NCBI GenBank assembly: GCA_017533915.1
Contig: JAFWHX010000020.1
Span: 124,001-188,000 of the forward strand
Direction: 5' to 3'
Length of the DNA: 64,000 bases
From: Eubacterium sp.
Lineage (GTDB): Bacteria; Bacillota; Clostridia; Peptostreptococcales; Anaerovoracaceae
A program made the translations under genes and the position numbers. Of this stretch, positions 3,154 to 52,745 are shown piece by piece. The first letter of the stretch is position 1; each line of letters starts with the position of its first letter. The notes beneath the pieces were generated by a model. That model ran no database searches. It worked only from the letters and a program-made list of their open reading frames with translations, and was not told the DNA's origin.

Positions 3154-3969
3154 ATGCTGTTAATGGCTGTTATGGTAGATCCTGACTGTATTATTAATAT
3201 GATGTTATTATCGGCGCATAGAGTAAACGGTATTATTACAGACGGTAAACTGTCTGTACACGATGCAGTCGTGGATGTCAACCTGACGACACTTTCCAGA
3301 GATGAGGCAGTCAGAGCTTTGACGACAGGTATCAACTGCAGCGAGGCTGATTTTGATCTGTCCGGAGAAAAAGGATATATACGAAGCTGGGCTGATATAG
3401 ACGGGACTGCGATCATAGTAGGAGGAACAGAGAAAGTAGATGATCCGATAGGATATCAAAAAGGTTATAGACCAGAGTACATCAGACGGGACAGTCAGGC
3501 TAAAGTCACCTCGCCGAAGTCTGGTGAGGTAAGCAGTTACAGCTACAGCCTTGGCGGTGAGAACTGGAAAGCGGAGACAGTATATGATCTGGCAGATACA
3601 TCAAAACCTGCGAGCGCTGTATGTTTCGGAGAGGTGGTCAGAAAGAAAGCCAACCCTCTCACAGTAAAGAGAAAGAGCAAAACGATCAAGATAAGAAAAG
3701 CGAAACTCAACAGGGAAAAGCAGACGATAAGCCGTAAAAAAATCATGTCTGTGAGTAAAAGCGAGGGAGCTGTCAGATATTAAATAGGCAGCGTGAGCAA
3801 TAATAAATACAAGAAGTATTTCACAATAAGCAAAAAGACCGGAAAAGTCACAGTCAAAAAGGGACTCAAAAAGGGAAAATACAGACTGACGATCAGAGTT
3901 ACGGCTGCAGGAAACGATGAATACAAAAAGAAGACTGTGAGCGTAAAGACTACCGTCAGGGTATACTGA
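3154..3969 (+). pseudogene. Surface-protein remnant with in-frame stop (Ig-like/3-strand C-terminal repeat)
   Basis: An open frame of 209 codons ends at TAA 3781-3783, yet the same frame continues for another 61 codons to TGA 3967-3969 and encodes the natural second half of the domain. Before the stop: NPLTVKRKSKTIKIRKAKL and ISRKKIMSVSKSEGAVRY; after it: NKYKKYFTISKKTGKVTVKKGLKKGKYRLTI (read in two pieces). This is the lysine-rich repeat seen at the C-terminus of many clostridial secreted proteins. There is no signal peptide at the N-terminus; the ATG at 3154 has AAGGG close upstream. Residues 1-150 are not recognised. It looks like a 5'-truncated cell-surface gene disabled by one substitution (a Lys AAA codon to TAA is the simplest explanation), though the short form may still be made. 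Confidence 0.7.
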
Positions 3970-5444: not shown

Positions 5445-6524
5445 CTACTTTACGATTTTTGATGGGACGCCGAGTCCGAATGTGTCATATACACGCTTCA
5501 TCGTACGCTCTGCGATAGCATTTGCTTTTTCCGCACCGTCATGGAGTGTTGTGAGAAGCTCTTCGGAATAACGTATGTCATTATATCTTTCCTGGATAGG
5601 AGCAAGTGATTCCTGTACCACTCCGACAAGATCCTTCTTGAAGTCGCCATATCCTTTTCCTGCATACATTTCTTCGATGCTCGCAAGGGACTCGCCTGAC
5701 AGAACGCTGTATATATTCATAAGGTTGCTGACGCCAGGCTTTTCCTCCGGGTCGAACCTTACGATTCCCTCAGAGTCGGTAACGGACTTCATAATAGACT
5801 TTTTGATCTTGTTCGCGTCATCGAGAAGGGCGATAGAACTATGGATGTTCTTGTTGGATTTGCTCATCTTCTGCGTTGGATCGTCCAGCGCCATAATGCG
5901 GGCGCCTTCCTTCATGAACCTTCCGTCAGGAACGACGAACGTTTTTTTGATCGTATTGTTGACTCTGATCGCGATGTCGCGGCAGAGCTCAATGTGCTGC
6001 TTCTGATCGCTACCTACCGGTACGATATCTGTATCATAGAGCAGAATGTCGGCTGCCATCAGGACAGGGTAGACGAGAAGTCCGGTGCCCACAGATTCTT
6101 TGCCGCCGCTCTTAGCCTTGAACTGAGTCATCCTGAAAAGCTCGCCCGTATATGAATTGCATGCGAGCACCCATCCGAGCTGCGCATGTCCCGGCACCTC
6201 AGACTGCACGAAGATGATCGATTTCTTGGGATCTACTCCTACAGCCATATAGAGAGCGGCCAGATCGAGTATGTGCTTCTTCAGCTCTTTCGGATCCTGC
6301 GGTACTGTGATGGCATGTTCATCTACTATGCAGTAGATGCAGTCGTTGTCGTTCTGAAGATCGACGAACTGTTTGATCGCGCCGAGGTAATTACCAAGAT
6401 GGAGACTTCCGGAAGGCTGTACACCGGAGAATACTCTCTTTCTTCTTTCAGGTTTTGCGTCAGCACCCTCAGCTTTGTTCTCAATATTGTCTGCTGCTGT
6501 GTTTTCTATATTTTTTTCAGGCAT
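5445..6524 (-). CDS. trpS: Tryptophanyl-tRNA synthetase
   Basis: Charges tRNA-Trp with tryptophan (class Ic synthetase, cytoplasmic dimer). The signature motifs are clear: GSLHLGNYLGAI (HIGH-type) and KMSKSNKN (KMSKS loop). GTGLLVYPVLMAADILLY and PVGSDQKQH are further conserved blocks. The start at 6524 (MPEKNIEN) follows AAAGGA by eight bases; an ATG at 6533 sits too close to that site. The N-terminus has about 25 extra acidic residues before the catalytic core (VFSGVQPSG), slightly longer than most bacterial TrpRS. The 359-residue length otherwise fits. It has its own promoter and no T-box leader is visible. Confidence 0.97.
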   Translation of the reverse strand: MPEKNIENTAADNIENKAEGADAKPERRKRVFSGVQPSGSLHLGNYLGAIKQFVDLQNDNDCIYCIVDEHAITVPQDPKELKKHILDLAALYMAVGVDPKKSIIFVQSEVPGHAQLGWVLACNSYTGELFRMTQFKAKSGGKESVGTGLLVYPVLMAADILLYDTDIVPVGSDQKQHIELCRDIAIRVNNTIKKTFVVPDGRFMKEGARIMALDDPTQKMSKSNKNIHSSIALLDDANKIKKSIMKSVTDSEGIVRFDPEEKPGVSNLMNIYSVLSGESLASIEEMYAGKGYGDFKKDLVGVVQESLAPIQERYNDIRYSEELLTTLHDGAEKANAIAERTMKRVYDTFGLGVPSKIVK

Positions 6525-6570
6525 TTCTGTCATTCCTTTCAAGTTTGTATCAAGTTGATATAACGTCAGA

Positions 6571-6600
6571 ATTATAACATTTATATACACTGGCGGTCAA
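6571..6600 (-). promoter_or_regulatory. Promoter for trpS
   Basis: On the minus strand TTGACC (6595-6600), 18-base spacer, perfect TATAAT (6571-6576). It lies about 47 bases before the trpS start. Confidence 0.75.
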
Positions 6601-6680
6601 GCATGGGAGGATGCAGGGGTAATGGACGGTGAGATACAGGGGTAATGGATCGGCAGAATCTCTCCATGCGGGTTGATTCC

Positions 6681-7216
6681 GTCTACAGAATGAGCAAAAC
6701 TATGCAAAGTGAGATCACTTCCGCTGGTTTTCAGGCTTTTGTAGACGGAATCATGGGTTTTGGGGCCATATCGTCTACAGAACGATCAAAAATGCGCAAA
6801 GTGAGATCACTTTTGCTGGTTTTTTGGTTTTTGTAGACAGAATCATGGGCTTTGGGGCTGTTTTCGTCTACAGAATGATCAAAAATGTGCAAAGTGAGAT
6901 CACTTTCGCTGGTTTTCAGGCTTTTGTAGACGGAATCATGGGCTTTGGGGCTGTTTTCGTCTACAGAATGATCAAAAATGTGCAAAGTGAGATCACTTTC
7001 GCTGATTTTCAGGTTTTTGTAGACGGGATCATGGGCTTTGAGGCTGTTTCCGTCTACAGAACGAGCAAAATTGTGAAAAATGATATCATTTTCGCTGATT
7101 TTTTGGTTTTTGTAGACGGGATCACGGGCTTTTGGGTCGTTTCTGTCTACAGAACGAGCAAAATTGTGAAAAATGATACCACTTTCGCTGATTATTTGGT
7201 TTTTGTAGACGAGTGA
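6681..7216. repeat. Six tandem copies of a 93-bp palindromic repeat
   Basis: Units begin with GTCTACAGAA at 6681, 6773, 6866, 6959, 7052 and 7145; spacing is 92, 93, 93, 93 and 93, and the last unit is cut after its hairpin half. Within each unit GTCTACA pairs with TGTAGAC about 53 bases later, and inside that an inner dyad AAAGTGA-GA-TCACTTT sits in the middle. The remaining 27 bases (GGAATCATGGGCTTTGGGG and following) form the linker. Unit 5 has a changed inner dyad, AAAATGATATCATTTT, in which both arms changed together. Because 93 is a multiple of three, long frames open on both strands, but none has a ribosome site. I do not recognise the element. Confidence 0.95.
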
Positions 7217-7406
7217 TGGATCATATGTAATGGCTGACTGTAGATCACTATAAAATCTGATGGAGATTATCTTCTGAAGCGATATTCAGTTTTATGAGCA
7301 CCATTCATGAAAATCGCAACATCAGGTTATTGATAGCTTTTGCTCTATTGATAACTGCTGCTTTATTGATAGAATTTCGCATTATCGTGTATAAACAAAA
7401 TTAAAG
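7217..7406. other. AT-rich intergenic region with three TATTGATA boxes
   Basis: No gene is visible between the repeat array and argC. The stretch holds TATTGATA at 7328-7335, 7346-7353 and 7364-7371, each exactly 18 bases apart on the same strand, followed 36 bases later by the argC promoter region. Regular spacing of less than two helical turns suggests, but does not prove, binding sites for a regulator. Confidence 0.6.
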
Positions 7407-7435
7407 TTGTATTATTATACATAATGTGTTATGAT
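7407..7435 (+). promoter_or_regulatory. Candidate argC promoter overlapped by an ARG-box-like operator
   Basis: TTGTAT (7407-7412), 17-base spacer, TATGAT (7430-7435). The dyad TGTATTATTATACA (7408-7421) matches the ArgR/AhrC operator core TGAATWWWWATTCA at 12 of 14 positions and covers the -35 and spacer, a good place for arginine repression. The -35 itself is poor. ArgR is not encoded in this window. Confidence 0.5.
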
Positions 7436-7540
7436 TTAATATATTGTACATACGGTGCGAAAATCGATAAAATCATGAGTTTTGTTCGGTGTTCTTGCTT
7501 GGATAGCCATTAAAGACAGGCAGGGCACCATGATCAGAAA

Positions 7541-8635
7541 ATGGTAAAAGATACAATGTATAAAGTATTCATAGACGGTGGACACGGCACGACCGGTCTG
7601 GAGATCGGTGAGAGACTTCTTAAACGTGATGATATTCAGCTTCTTGAGATCGAGGAGCGTTACAGAAAGGACCTGGCTGCCAGAGTAGAGATGGCCGGGA
7701 AGGCCGATGTTACGATCATGTGCCTTCCGGATGCGGCATCAAAGGAGCTTGCAGAAGTGCTTCCTGATGATGTCAGAGTGATCGATACTTCGACCGCTCA
7801 TCGAGTGGATCCTGGCTGGGTATACGGCATGGCGGAGCTTTGTCCCGGATGGCGCGAGAAGATAAGGAACGCCGCAAGAGTGGCTAATCCGGGGTGCCAT
7901 GCGACAGGTTTCATCCTGCTGGCCAGGCCGCTGGTCGATGCAAGACTCATATCATCAAAATCTCCACTGTCATGCTTCTGTATGACCGGGTACTCCGGCG
8001 GTGGGAAAAAAATGATCGAGGATTACGACAGGAGACATAAGGAAGCTGCTGAAGCGGTCAGCCCTTCGCAGTATGCTCTTGGCCAGTGCCACAAACATCT
8101 TCCGGAAATGAAGATTATGTCCGGCCTTGAAAAGGAGCCTGTTTTCTGCCCTGTAGTAGGTGATTTTTACAGGGGGATGGTGATGACGATAGAGCTTCCA
8201 GCGGAAATGATCTGCGGTTATGATGGAACCGTTGATTCTGAGGTGGTCCAAAGTTCGATGGCTGATTCTGGGGTGGTTCAAACTCCGACAGCTGATCCCG
8301 GGATGGTCCAAAGCTCTGGAGATATCGATTTGACACGGATGGATAGAGATTGCGGGGATAATAAAAACGACATATTGCAGATAATAAAAGATACATATAG
8401 AAAGCGATACAAAGATGAGCCGCTCATCAGGCTGGCAGACACACCTGAAGATGGATTTTTATACAGCGACACAATGGCGGGGAGCGACGGATTCGAGATA
8501 ATGGTTTCCGGAAACAGCGACAGGATACTGCTTGTGTCCAGGTTCGATAATCTCGGCAAAGGAGCATCCGGCGCAGCGGTGCAGAATCTGAATATAATGC
8601 TCGGAACTGATGAGTGGAAAGGGCTCAGGTTCTGA
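7541..8635 (+). CDS. argC: N-acetyl-gamma-glutamyl-phosphate reductase
   Basis: Third step of arginine synthesis: NADPH reduction of N-acetylglutamyl phosphate to the semialdehyde. The N-terminus VFIDGGHGTTGLEIGERL is the nucleotide-binding loop of the short (type 2) ArgC class. The catalytic Cys lies in ANPGCHATG near residue 118. The start is uncertain: ATG 7541 or ATG 7556 (MYKVFIDGG), neither with a strong ribosome site; the second gives the usual N-terminus. At 364 residues it is about 50 longer than type 2 ArgC proteins because of an insert near residues 228-275 that contains three 10-residue repeats of DSEVVQSSMA type. The insert interrupts the C-terminal part between PAEMICGY and the final LIRLADTPEDG block. 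Confidence 0.93.
   Translation: MVKDTMYKVFIDGGHGTTGLEIGERLLKRDDIQLLEIEERYRKDLAARVEMAGKADVTIMCLPDAASKELAEVLPDDVRVIDTSTAHRVDPGWVYGMAELCPGWREKIRNAARVANPGCHATGFILLARPLVDARLISSKSPLSCFCMTGYSGGGKKMIEDYDRRHKEAAEAVSPSQYALGQCHKHLPEMKIMSGLEKEPVFCPVVGDFYRGMVMTIELPAEMICGYDGTVDSEVVQSSMADSGVVQTPTADPGMVQSSGDIDLTRMDRDCGDNKNDILQIIKDTYRKRYKDEPLIRLADTPEDGFLYSDTMAGSDGFEIMVSGNSDRILLVSRFDNLGKGASGAAVQNLNIMLGTDEWKGLRF
8234..8320 (+). repeat. Three in-frame 30-bp repeats inside argC
   Basis: Copies start at 8234, 8264 and 8294, each beginning GATYCYGRGRTGGTYCAAA. They encode DSEVVQSSMA, DSGVVQTPTA and DPGMVQSSG. The unit is a multiple of three so the frame is kept. Third-position and other silent differences between copies show that the expansion is not brand new. 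Confidence 0.9.
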
Positions 8636-8710: not shown

Positions 8711-9928
8711 ATGATGTTTATAGAGAATGGCGGAGTGACATCTCCGAAAGGGTTCAGAGCTTCGGCGGGATATGCCGGTATAGGCGATGACAAGCAAAAA
8801 GGTGATATAGCTCTGATCGCGAGCACAGTAGTAGGAAATGCCGCCGCGGTATATACGAAGAATAAAGTAAAGGCTGCTCACATAGGGGTAATGAAGAACC
8901 ATCTGGTGGGCGGAATGGCTCAGGCAATAATCTGCAACAGCGGGAATGCGAATACATGCACCATGAATGGGACGGAGATAGCACAGAGGACGTGTGAGAT
9001 CGTCGGGCGCGAGCTTGATATAGATCCGGTTTTCGTGCTCCCCGCTTCTACAGGAGTGATCGGGGTCGAGATGCGTATCGCGCCTTTTGAGAATACGATA
9101 CCTGAGCTATGCGAAAACCTGTCGAAAGAGAATGGCACAGCGGCGGCAAAAGCCATAATGACGACTGATACCAAGCCGAAGGAAGCGGCGGTAAGCTTCA
9201 TATGCGGCGGACGGGAATGTGTGCTCGGCGCTGTTACAAAAGGGAGCGGGATGATCCACATTAATATGGGTACCATGCTCTCGTTCATGACGACAGACGC
9301 TGCCATAAGCGCAGAGCTTCTGCAGAAAGCTCTGGATGAAGAGATACCTGACAGCTACAATCAGGTCACTATCGATGGAGATACATCTACTAACGACACA
9401 CTTGTGATAATCGCGAATGGCGAAGCCGGAAACGTTATAGTAGACAGAGAAGGTGCAGACTATGACAGCTTCAGAGTGGCTCTTCATGAGATGAGCGTCT
9501 TCATGGCAAGAGAAATAGCCGGTGACGGTGAAGGATGCACCAAGCTGATACAGGCTCATGTAAAGAATGCGCCTGGGAAAGAGCAGGCACGAGTGATCTC
9601 CAGAAGCATAATAAGCTCAGACCTTGTCAAGACAGCGATCTTCGGCGAAGATGCAAACTGGGGAAGAGTGCTTTGCGCAATAGGATATGCTCCATGTGAT
9701 TTCTCTGTGATCAACGTCGATGTTGACCTGTCGTCAAAGGCAGGGAGCATACCGGTCTGCAGGGGATCCATGGCAGTGGGATTTGACGAAGAGCTGGCGG
9801 CAGAGATCCTTAAGGAAGAAGAGGTGGACATTGAAGTCGACCTTCACAATGGTGATGAAGAGGCGTTCGCGTGGGGCTGCGACCTGACGTATGATTATGT
9901 GAAGATCAACGGTGAATACCGGACCTGA
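8711..9928 (+). CDS. argJ: Bifunctional ornithine acetyltransferase / N-acetylglutamate synthase
   Basis: Transfers the acetyl group from N-acetylornithine to glutamate, closing the acetyl cycle of arginine synthesis; many ArgJ proteins also make acetylglutamate from acetyl-CoA. The precursor cleaves itself before the nucleophilic Thr in KGSGMIHINMGTMLSFMTTDA-like context (Thr near residue 187), giving alpha and beta chains. The usual NMATML is NMGTML here. Other conserved blocks are ICNSGNANTCT, GEDANWGR and the C-terminal KINGEYRT. The start ATG-ATG at 8711/8714 follows AGGGAGAAG. It is 405 residues, normal. The last 41 bases of coding sequence are tandemly repeated after the stop. Confidence 0.96.
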   Translation: MMFIENGGVTSPKGFRASAGYAGIGDDKQKGDIALIASTVVGNAAAVYTKNKVKAAHIGVMKNHLVGGMAQAIICNSGNANTCTMNGTEIAQRTCEIVGRELDIDPVFVLPASTGVIGVEMRIAPFENTIPELCENLSKENGTAAAKAIMTTDTKPKEAAVSFICGGRECVLGAVTKGSGMIHINMGTMLSFMTTDAAISAELLQKALDEEIPDSYNQVTIDGDTSTNDTLVIIANGEAGNVIVDREGADYDSFRVALHEMSVFMAREIAGDGEGCTKLIQAHVKNAPGKEQARVISRSIISSDLVKTAIFGEDANWGRVLCAIGYAPCDFSVINVDVDLSSKAGSIPVCRGSMAVGFDEELAAEILKEEEVDIEVDLHNGDEEAFAWGCDLTYDYVKINGEYRT

Positions 9929-10003
9929 CGTATGATTATGTGAAGGTCAACGGTGAATACCGGACCTGATATATGATTATGTGAAGATCAACGGTGAATA
10001 CCG
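9881..10003 (+). repeat. Three 41-bp tandem copies of the argJ 3' end
   Basis: Unit starting GACCTGACGTATGATTATGT at 9881, 9922 and 9963 (ends 10003). Copy 1 is the last coding stretch of argJ; the stop TGA at 9926-9928 is made by the first bases of copy 2. Copies differ at only a few bases, so the duplication is fairly recent. Because 41 is not a multiple of three, copies 2 and 3 are not in frame with argJ. Confidence 0.95.
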
Positions 10004-10133
10004 GACATGATACTGATCTAAGAAGATCAGATATGTGGTCTTGTATGGAGCAGAAGACACGTGGAAACGGCGCTGAACAGTATGGATTTATGCAGACTGC
10101 GTAAAGCAGACCGTACGACCGGAGAAAAGACTT

Positions 10134-16950: not shown

Positions 16951-18086
16951 CTGCTATATCCCTCCTTGAGATCGCCTTCTGCAGCGATATCCTGACCTAT
17001 CATGCGGAATGACATATTCTCCAGCCTGAATGCGGTATCAGGAGAATCGCATCCTGTACCTGCGACAGGGGACTTTGCACCTTCTCCGCCCATTATCATC
17101 GGAGCGATGAAACAGACTGCGTGGGTTGCCATGCCGGATGCGAGCACGGACCAGTTGATAGATGCTCCGCCTTCCACGAGGATTGAATCTATCTTCATGC
17201 TGCCTAGCTCTTTCATAAGATCCTGCATGCTCAATCTGCCATCGTCTCCACGGCTTACGCTAAGAATGAACACACCGCGGTCCTGATATGGCTTCAGCCG
17301 TTCCGGATCCGTTACGGAAGTCGCTATTATCGTATGTGGCAGCCAGCTCCTGTAGTTTCCTCCGTCAGCAGCGCCTGTGACTACTTTAGCACTGAGCGGG
17401 GTCCTGAGGTCGGTATCGCAGATCACCCTTACAGGATCCAGACCTTCTGCGTCTCTTACGTTCAGCATCGGGTCATCTGCGAGGACTGTTCCGATGCCTG
17501 CCAGTATAGCCATATGCTCCGCACGCATCTTATGTACATGGCGGCGTGATTCCTCGCAGCTTATCCATTTTGACTTTCCGGTAACTGATGCGATCTTTCC
17601 GTCAAGTGTCATGGCGTATTTGACCGTCACATACGGAAGGCCTGTGGTTATATAGTGGAAAAAGACTTTGTTGATAGAGTCGCACTCATCGCGGAGAAGA
17701 TCCGTGACGACGCGGATACCGGCATTTCTGAGGATCGATATGCCTTTTCCTGCGACAAGTGGGTTCGGGTCAGGTGATCCAACGAAGACTTCTGATATTC
17801 CGGCTTCGATAAGTGCGTCGGTGCATGGGGGCTGCTTGCCGTGATGGCAGCATGGCTCGAGCGTCACGTAGATTGAAGAACCTTTCGGGTCTTCAGTACA
17901 GTGCGCAAGGGCATTCCTCTCAGCATGGAGCTCGCCGTACCTTTCATGATATCCTTCTCCGATGATGCGGCCGTCTTTCACTATGACAGCTCCGACGAGC
18001 GGATTAGGTCCGGTATATCCTGCGCCCTTAAGCGCGAGCTCTATTGCGCGCCGCATGTATTTTCTGCTGTTTTCGTCGTTACACAT
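16935..18086 (-). CDS. ribD: Diaminohydroxyphosphoribosylaminopyrimidine deaminase / 5-amino-6-ribosylaminouracil reductase
   Basis: First gene of the rib operon, carrying out deamination and then NADPH reduction of the pyrimidine intermediate. The N-terminal deaminase has the zinc motifs HAERNAL and PCCHHGKQPPC; the C-terminal reductase starts near residue 150 (PYVTVKYAMTLDGKIA) and has ILVEGGASINWS. The chosen start at 18086 (MCNDENSRKYMRRAIELAL) has a poor ribosome site, but the frame upstream of it runs backwards through the riboswitch and terminator and cannot be coding. The product is 383 residues. The weak site may itself be part of expression control. Confidence 0.95.
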   Translation of the reverse strand: MCNDENSRKYMRRAIELALKGAGYTGPNPLVGAVIVKDGRIIGEGYHERYGELHAERNALAHCTEDPKGSSIYVTLEPCCHHGKQPPCTDALIEAGISEVFVGSPDPNPLVAGKGISILRNAGIRVVTDLLRDECDSINKVFFHYITTGLPYVTVKYAMTLDGKIASVTGKSKWISCEESRRHVHKMRAEHMAILAGIGTVLADDPMLNVRDAEGLDPVRVICDTDLRTPLSAKVVTGAADGGNYRSWLPHTIIATSVTDPERLKPYQDRGVFILSVSRGDDGRLSMQDLMKELGSMKIDSILVEGGASINWSVLASGMATHAVCFIAPMIMGGEGAKSPVAGTGCDSPDTAFRLENMSFRMIGQDIAAEGDLKEGYSRCSQE

Positions 18087-52591: not shown

Positions 52592-52666
52592 GCGGAAGTG
52601 GCTCAGGGGTAGAGCATCGCCTTGCCAAGGCGAGGGTCGCGAGTTCGAATCTCGTCTTCCGCTCCA
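52592..52666 (+). tRNA. tRNA-Gly (GCC)
   Basis: Acceptor GCGGAAG/CTTCCGC, anticodon GCC, encoded CCA. Confidence 0.97.
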
Positions 52667-52671
52667 GTTCT

Positions 52672-52745
<74 letters not shown>

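Follow-up and report, generated by a model that had tools for sequence, protein, structure and literature searches.

A dispersed mosaic repeat of tandem palindromes at a 93-bp pitch in a Eubacterium genome, possibly selected as double-stranded DNA

The trpS-argC locus and its six-unit array

Positions 6681-7210 of the window (the whole stretch of DNA analysed, 64,000 nucleotides of draft genome sequence) lie between trpS and argC and hold six tandem units, each a 66-bp imperfect palindrome, here called type A (Table 1). The unit-to-unit steps are 92, 93, 93, 93 and 93, and TRF returned a period of 93 with 5.7 copies, 89% matches and a score of 721, which confirmed the six-copy 93-bp tandem array described in an earlier note on this DNA. 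The description given there of outer arms (GTCTACA/TGTAGAC) and inner dyad also holds, and the core of unit 5 does read AAAATGATATCATTTT. Unit 6, to which the note had assigned a single mismatch, has two in its core AAAATGATACCACTTT, at unit positions 29/38 and 32/35.

Table 1. Coordinates of features at the trpS-argC locus (window positions)
Feature	Position	Strand	Comment
trpS	5445..6542	-	PF00579; start at 6542, 6533 or 6524; left neighbour, pointing away
Promoter-like site before trpS, beside the insert	6571..6600	-	TTGACC-18-TATAAT, 11/12, consensus match only
DNA present here, absent from the G005 trpS-argC spacer	~6615..7378	.	~760 bp; each end may be off by tens of bases
Type-A unit 1	6681..6746	+	66-bp imperfect palindrome
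First spacer	6747..6772	+	26 bp, the other four of the window being 27 bp; related to spacers of other arrays, consensus GGAATCAGGGGTTTTCTGGCTGTTTCT
Type-A unit 2	6773..6838	+	step 92, after the 26-bp spacer
Type-A unit 3	6866..6931	+	
Type-A unit 4	6959..7024	+	
Type-A unit 5	7052..7117	+	carries the double change of the earlier note
Type-A unit 6	7145..7210	+	two core-dyad mismatches
3' tail	7211..7295	+	GAGCAACTGATCAT..GGCTGACTGCAGATCACATT..; resembles tails of other arrays
argC	7541..8635	+	PF22698, PF01118; right neighbour, pointing away

The outer arms of the A unit are GTCTACAGAA/TTYTGTAGAC at positions 1-10/57-66, A/T tracts occupy positions 16-19/48-51, and the central dyad AAARTGATATCAYTTT spans positions 26-41; these motifs are set apart by 5- and 6-bp segments that are mostly unpaired. 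Each unit contains two half-sites TCTACAGAA facing inward, with the centres of the heptamers 57 bp apart, and is followed by a spacer of 26 or 27 bp. Of the six window units, four were folded as single + strands and three as single - strands, and their z-scores against shuffles ran from -2.3 to -4.6. A second inverted repeat arises from a spacer plus the ends of the two units beside it, as folded for the junction of units 3 and 4, which gives single strands a choice of two folds. Inside the window array, nothing resembling a promoter or terminator was found; in the region, promoter-like sites numbered 4, compared with 3.6 in shuffles.

The closest of 10 relatives compared was the sister species G005 (identities of 90% for TrpS, 88% for ArgB and 85% for ArgJ), in which trpS and argC are arranged as here and stand roughly 0.15-0.2 kb apart, the exact start codons being uncertain. 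Window segments 6514-6581 and 7386-7452 aligned to stretches of G005 only ~40 bp apart. By this alignment ~760 bp were gained here, or deleted in G005, and the sequence near both gene starts stayed in place. At a second locus (L013), the spacer between yicC and rqcH is ~1.5 kb here versus ~0.2 kb in the relatives G004 and G010, as measured between ORF or alignment ends; yicC was found in these two of the four relatives tried and not in G005 or G014. The acetyltransferase gene adjoining gltX was not found beside gltX in G005, and G014 had only a 44%-identical acetyltransferase ~120 bp downstream, so the gltX locus was not used for comparison.

Distribution and layout in the genome

A DNA search of the source genome (2.19-Mb draft) gave 61 matching stretches, with overlaps and both strands counted. 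Employing an iterated profile search after fetching the surroundings of these matches, we obtained the genome-wide count that the earlier note had proposed: 90 type-A units at 23 sites, one to six per site, spread over 11 contigs and both strands. Two of the sites, L025 and L027, adjoin contig ends and have an identical 26-bp spacer; they are therefore probably the two parts of a single array that the assembly split, which makes ~22 loci, not 23. The palindromy of the units exceeds chance, with Watson-Crick pairs at a mean of 22.4 of 33 dyad positions (minimum 19) in the 89 full-length units, against 9.2 +/- 2.5 (maximum 18) in base shuffles. The repeat consists of dispersed, extragenic, clustered palindromes in alternating orientation.

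At 15 sites, one or more units of a second type (B), or remnants of them, lie upstream of the A units. The B unit is 71 bp long, CTGTAGAAAAA...TTTTTCTACAG, with its core near GTTTTRYTACACTTTTCATCAAA; as read by eye, the half-site noted above is common to both types, inward-facing in A, outward-facing in B. The window array has no B unit. Used as a DNA query, the B stretch of L013 also gave two matches away from any A array. On the other side of the A units, a tail profile matched at E < 0.001 at 9 of the 23 sites, six of which, the window's included, had supplied the profile seeds. The composite B-A-tail layout recurs at many loci.

Spacing is nearly invariant. Steps from A to A are 93 bp (58) or 92 bp (9), and those from B to B are 93 bp (21) or 92 bp (1). 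Where B units precede A units, the last B and the first A start 95 bp apart in 14 of 15 cases; the exception, with a step of 63, is L026, where only a partial B is retained. The dyad is centred at 36 bp in B and at 33.5 bp in A, so the centres remain ~92.5-93 bp apart across the change of type. Only one of the 90 A units changed in length (an L012 unit, 1 bp shorter), and the spacer is 26 bp in 8 of 67 cases and otherwise 27 bp.

Based on mechanical ORFs with neighbours picked by hand (L011 and L012 uncertain), 5 of the 22 loci lie between divergent genes, 4 between convergent genes and 13 between co-directional genes (8 and 5 per sense). The orientation of the arrays relative to genes is free, so read-through RNA cannot be the factor common to them. 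Neighbours include hrcA, yicC/rqcH, xpt, addA, PBP1A, gltX, V-ATPase D, proC and trpS/argC. We listed 43 flanking proteins and scanned 40 with NCBIfam, the other three being one ORF from each of L011, L031 and L032. NCBIfam assigned no family to 15 of the 40, and Pfam, applied to 10 of these 15, again gave none for 4, which left 9 of 40 unassigned. The 31 of 40 proteins that could be named come mostly from ordinary genes and share no common theme, and a regulon defined by neighbour function was rejected on this account.

Other tandem repeats were encountered in the same DNA. In the window, a 30-bp tandem repeat lies inside argC (8233-8313), and the part of ArgC that holds it (~residues 229-281) has no counterpart in 10 aligned relatives; a tandem repeat with a 41-bp unit (3.2 copies) spans the end of argJ (9881-10010); and an 80-bp tandem pair reported by TRF (52592-52745) represents two tRNA-Gly genes (anticodons GCC and TCC) of a tRNA cluster. 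A third palindromic tandem family, with a period of 64 bp and arms like GTTAGTATAA/TTATACTAAC, stands beside two A arrays (L028, 3608-3831; L026, ~3348-3507, or 2795-2954 in array orientation). L086 carries a palindromic tandem array at 17577-17858, with a period of 86 bp and a ~20-bp palindrome around TTGTACAATATTGTACAA. Downstream of their A arrays (in array orientation), L016 has 35-bp repeats, CACCTCGGCAAATCACAATCTGACGAAATAACACG, L013 has related 35-bp repeats and L029 a 33-bp cousin. In total, whatever their kind, 18 tandem arrays were counted in 144 kb of this genome's own sampled DNA, window included, versus 15 in 265 kb from 15 same-genus stretches.

The units that the earlier note suggested looking for in relatives were not found: a DNA search of 60 relatives, 16 of which belong to its genus, gave no match at E <= 0.001, and a covariance model of the unit gave none in the 16 same-genus genomes among up to 150 candidates scored per genome, a limit that the source genome itself reached. 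As judged by these searches, the repeat appears so far in one genome only among the relatives searched. Phage and plasmid collections contained no match to the repeat, so an origin from either was rejected, and the unit pattern had 0 matches in viral contigs. A loose unit pattern gave 2 single matches (L041 and L042) in a genome-contig collection (records close to the source genome may be absent from all of these collections); neither had a 93-bp tandem array by TRF, and both were taken as chance rather than as family members. With Rfam, window 6000-8000 gave four weak miRNA matches far below gathering score, and membership in a known RNA family was rejected, no Rfam family coming near its threshold. 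No description of the repeat was found in the literature searched, which took in few subscription journals.

Constraint and covariation within the units

As a measure of constraint we took the differences between units of one array, that is, between copies that diverged after local duplication (140 pairs). Positions 2-6 and 61-65 showed 0 differences in the 140 pairs. Differences per site rose from 0.028 in the outer arms through 0.069 (A/T tracts) and 0.091 (core) to 0.205 between the motifs; for spacers the value was 0.171 (64 pairs of 27-bp spacers). Segments that vary freely in sequence keep a fixed length, from which we infer that helical phasing of double-stranded DNA is a likelier cause than RNA loops. 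A protein-coding repeat was rejected. One frame lacks stops at 9 of 23 sites, and in it the differences within arrays over the 66-bp unit were most frequent at the second codon position (464, versus 312 at the first and 261 at the third).

The double change in unit 5, at positions 29/38, had been read in the earlier note as a paired change that preserves the fold. Over the 89 full-length units these two positions vary independently. Their combinations (AT 29, GT 24, AC 23, GC 11, CT 1, TT 1) are those expected of two independent two-letter positions, with a slight lean to mismatched combinations and a Fisher p of 0.24 when array L031 is left out. In 66 steps between adjacent units, both positions changed in 8, the left only in 16, the right only in 7 and neither in 35; the 8 joint changes compare with ~5.5 of 66 under independence. 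At this pair, then, the arms of dispersed copies do change independently, which the note itself had named as telling against its structural explanation, and the apparent matched mutation looks like coincidence. A single seemingly compensatory change misleads when it is taken from one array.

All pairs were then considered together (21 pairs, 78 of the 90 units, 500 shuffles). Paired cells made up 94.6% versus 93.8% in shuffles, and the covariation score was 0.082 versus 0.067; none of the 500 shuffles equalled either value. Double-change cells numbered 22 versus 15.9 (12 of 500 shuffles reached this), pairs with a double change 5 (105 of 500) and further pair types 17 (89 of 500), the last two figures being unremarkable. 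This excess is due to one divergent array, L031. Nine of the 22 double-change cells represent one concerted swap in three L031 units, at pairs 17/50, 18/49 and 19/48 with pairing kept, and a tenth cell also belongs to L031. When the test was rerun without this array (75 rows, 200 shuffles), 143 of the shuffles attained the observed covariation score (0.062 versus 0.064 shuffled) and 182 the observed paired fraction.

Mismatches of the G-U kind outnumbered those of the A-C kind over the 21 pairs (79 versus 48 cells), with 34 G-U and 0 A-C at pair 8/59; leaving out that pair, the numbers were 45 and 48. Pair 8/59 (GC 52, GT 30, AT 3, AC 0 of 85) showed borderline coupling (Fisher p = 0.055). A junction hairpin kept through coupling of the first and last spacer bases was rejected, no coupling being apparent (GT 40, GC 16, AT 8, AC 3 of 67). 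Because covariation does not exceed shuffles without L031 and positions 29/38 are uncoupled, the units give no general sign that RNA pairing is the thing kept. A structured RNA family was rejected on the same grounds, compensatory changes rising above shuffles only with L031 and pair 8/59 remaining borderline. The earlier claim that the fold, not a protein, is under selection therefore stands in part: the palindrome is constrained and no coding pattern is present, but the argument from the paired change fails.

Interpretation and comparison with known systems

The reading that we favour, with about even confidence, is that of a BIME-like dispersed mosaic repeat under selection in its double-stranded form; its phased arrays would most likely be protein-bound and have a structural role. 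Dyad-symmetric DNA sites would be strung at the fixed 93-bp pitch, a putative sequence-specific dimeric or multimeric protein would bind the dyads, and the resulting array, dispersed through the genome as a repeat, may serve chromosome organisation or form a boundary between transcription units. We favour this reading because one 93-bp pitch runs across A and B with a length change in 1 of 90 units, because an RNA hairpin would tolerate indels in freely varying loops, and because outer positions 2-6 and 61-65 are unchanged after local duplication. Degeneracy at the core is symmetric (R at 29, Y at 38) yet uncoupled, like that of a dimer operator; orientation is free, the window array has no promoter- or terminator-like site, and the neighbours are functionally mixed, all of which argue in the same direction. 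Among the options listed in the earlier note, an array of protein-binding sites is now the best, although we infer the bound protein, its identity and its structural role. Against selection as double-stranded DNA stand the G-U excess, the borderline coupling at 8/59 and the all-pair test, which taken alone favours structure; the swap in L031 that keeps pairing is one event and would also be predicted by a structural reading. The short spacer of G005 could, moreover, be a deletion in that genome.

A more specific form of the double-stranded reading is tentative and, in our estimate, unlikely: the arrays might be the scaffold of an undescribed nucleoprotein structure, in which a lineage protein on two interchangeable unit types at a 93-bp pitch would organise or insulate the chromosome at ~22 places. 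If the double-stranded reading as such is right, BIME-like arrays would exist without RAYT, the transposase held responsible for BIMEs, with a pitch common to two unit types, in a bacterium with what appear to be Gram-positive-type genes, as judged from matches such as that to the Gram-positive AddA model; and the 90 mapped A units would be a set of sites for fishing out a new DNA-binding protein directly.

The main rival, possible and still rather improbable, would be a non-autonomous mobile repeat whose palindromes, as single-stranded hairpins or duplex ends, are acted on in trans by a transposase or recombinase, with tandem amplification after insertion and any effect on the host incidental. 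Mobility would fit the scatter of arrays over 11 contigs and both strands, the short spacers of relatives at trpS-argC and yicC-rqcH, the recurring B-A-tail composite and the lack of matches in the relatives searched, and conservation of the palindrome could also reflect a requirement of transposition or recombination. However, a genome-wide transposase search, which covered the Y1 type only (RAYT-type, IS200/IS605-like; PF01797), gave no match in the 97%-complete source genome, with a control search positive in 5 of 14 known genomes. No transposase was present among the named flanking proteins (31 of 40), no target-site duplication was seen by eye at trpS-argC, and past mobility alone would not hold positions 2-6 and 61-65 unchanged while their neighbours drift. 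Mobility in trans need not exclude selection as double-stranded DNA, since BIMEs, according to PMC2817692, have been proposed to be mobile, and BIMEs/REPs are reported there to bind gyrase, IHF and Pol I.

That the array acts as RNA, as in the reading of the earlier note, we consider quite unlikely: it would be transcribed, and its hairpins would be small RNAs, stabilisers of mRNA ends or attenuators. The window units folded score better than shuffles on both strands, the alternative junction hairpin also forms, and G-U exceeds A-C at the borderline pair 8/59, all in keeping with RNA, as is the all-pair test of 78 units when taken alone. Yet that signal vanishes without L031, pair 29/38 and the first and last spacer bases are uncoupled, and loop lengths are fixed. 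Moreover, 5 of 22 loci, trpS-argC included, lie between divergent genes, and neither a promoter- or terminator-like site in the window array nor an Rfam family near gathering score was found. Equally improbable, and already disfavoured, is a neutral, functionless tandem expansion of a palindromic seed in a duplication-prone genome. Tandem arrays are indeed denser in this genome's own sampled DNA than in the stretches of relatives, and repeats occur inside genes as well, for example in argC; but conservation within arrays is strongly uneven, indels are near-absent in units, and two different unit types keep the same pitch.

Several described systems resemble the repeat in part. CRISPR arrays have a regular repeat-spacer layout, with unique spacers between near-identical repeats; the layout is alike, and identity with CRISPR was rejected because the spacers here are related and share a consensus and the 66-bp repeats have diverged. 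MIRU-type minisatellites of mycobacteria are direct repeats with short ORFs. They too are tandem units of similar length at tens of intergenic loci, whereas the unit here is palindromic and without a coding pattern.

The REPs tagged with GTAG or CGTC, as presented in PMC3733652, are likewise palindromic extragenic repeats, sometimes species-specific. They lie mainly between co-directional or convergent genes, whereas 5 of the 22 loci here are divergent, and the units have no unpaired GTAG or CGTC end tag, GTAGAC lying within the paired outer arm. The nearest likeness is to BIME-2 and modular BIMEs built from REPs in enterobacteria, Stenotrophomonas and Xanthomonas. According to PMC2817692, these are extragenic and species-specific, with regular spacing and alternating orientation, and form mosaics of more than one unit type in tandem clusters of variable copy number. 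The units here are longer (66/71 bp versus 20-40 bp for REPs), their period is fixed at 93/92 bp, and they number 90 A units in ~22 clusters, compared with usually >100 copies for REPs. In Stenotrophomonas REPs selection for complementary mutations has been suggested (PMC2817692), in contrast to the lack of general compensatory change here; BIMEs are tied to RAYT transposases, and none of the Y1 type was detected. Membership among REPs or BIMEs with RAYT was thus rejected for a 66-bp palindrome with paired ends and no Y1 transposase, the units being extragenic and clustered as in that group. Given that no RAYT-type transposase was detected and GTAG/CGTC tags are missing, the repeat would work like a BIME and is not filed as one.
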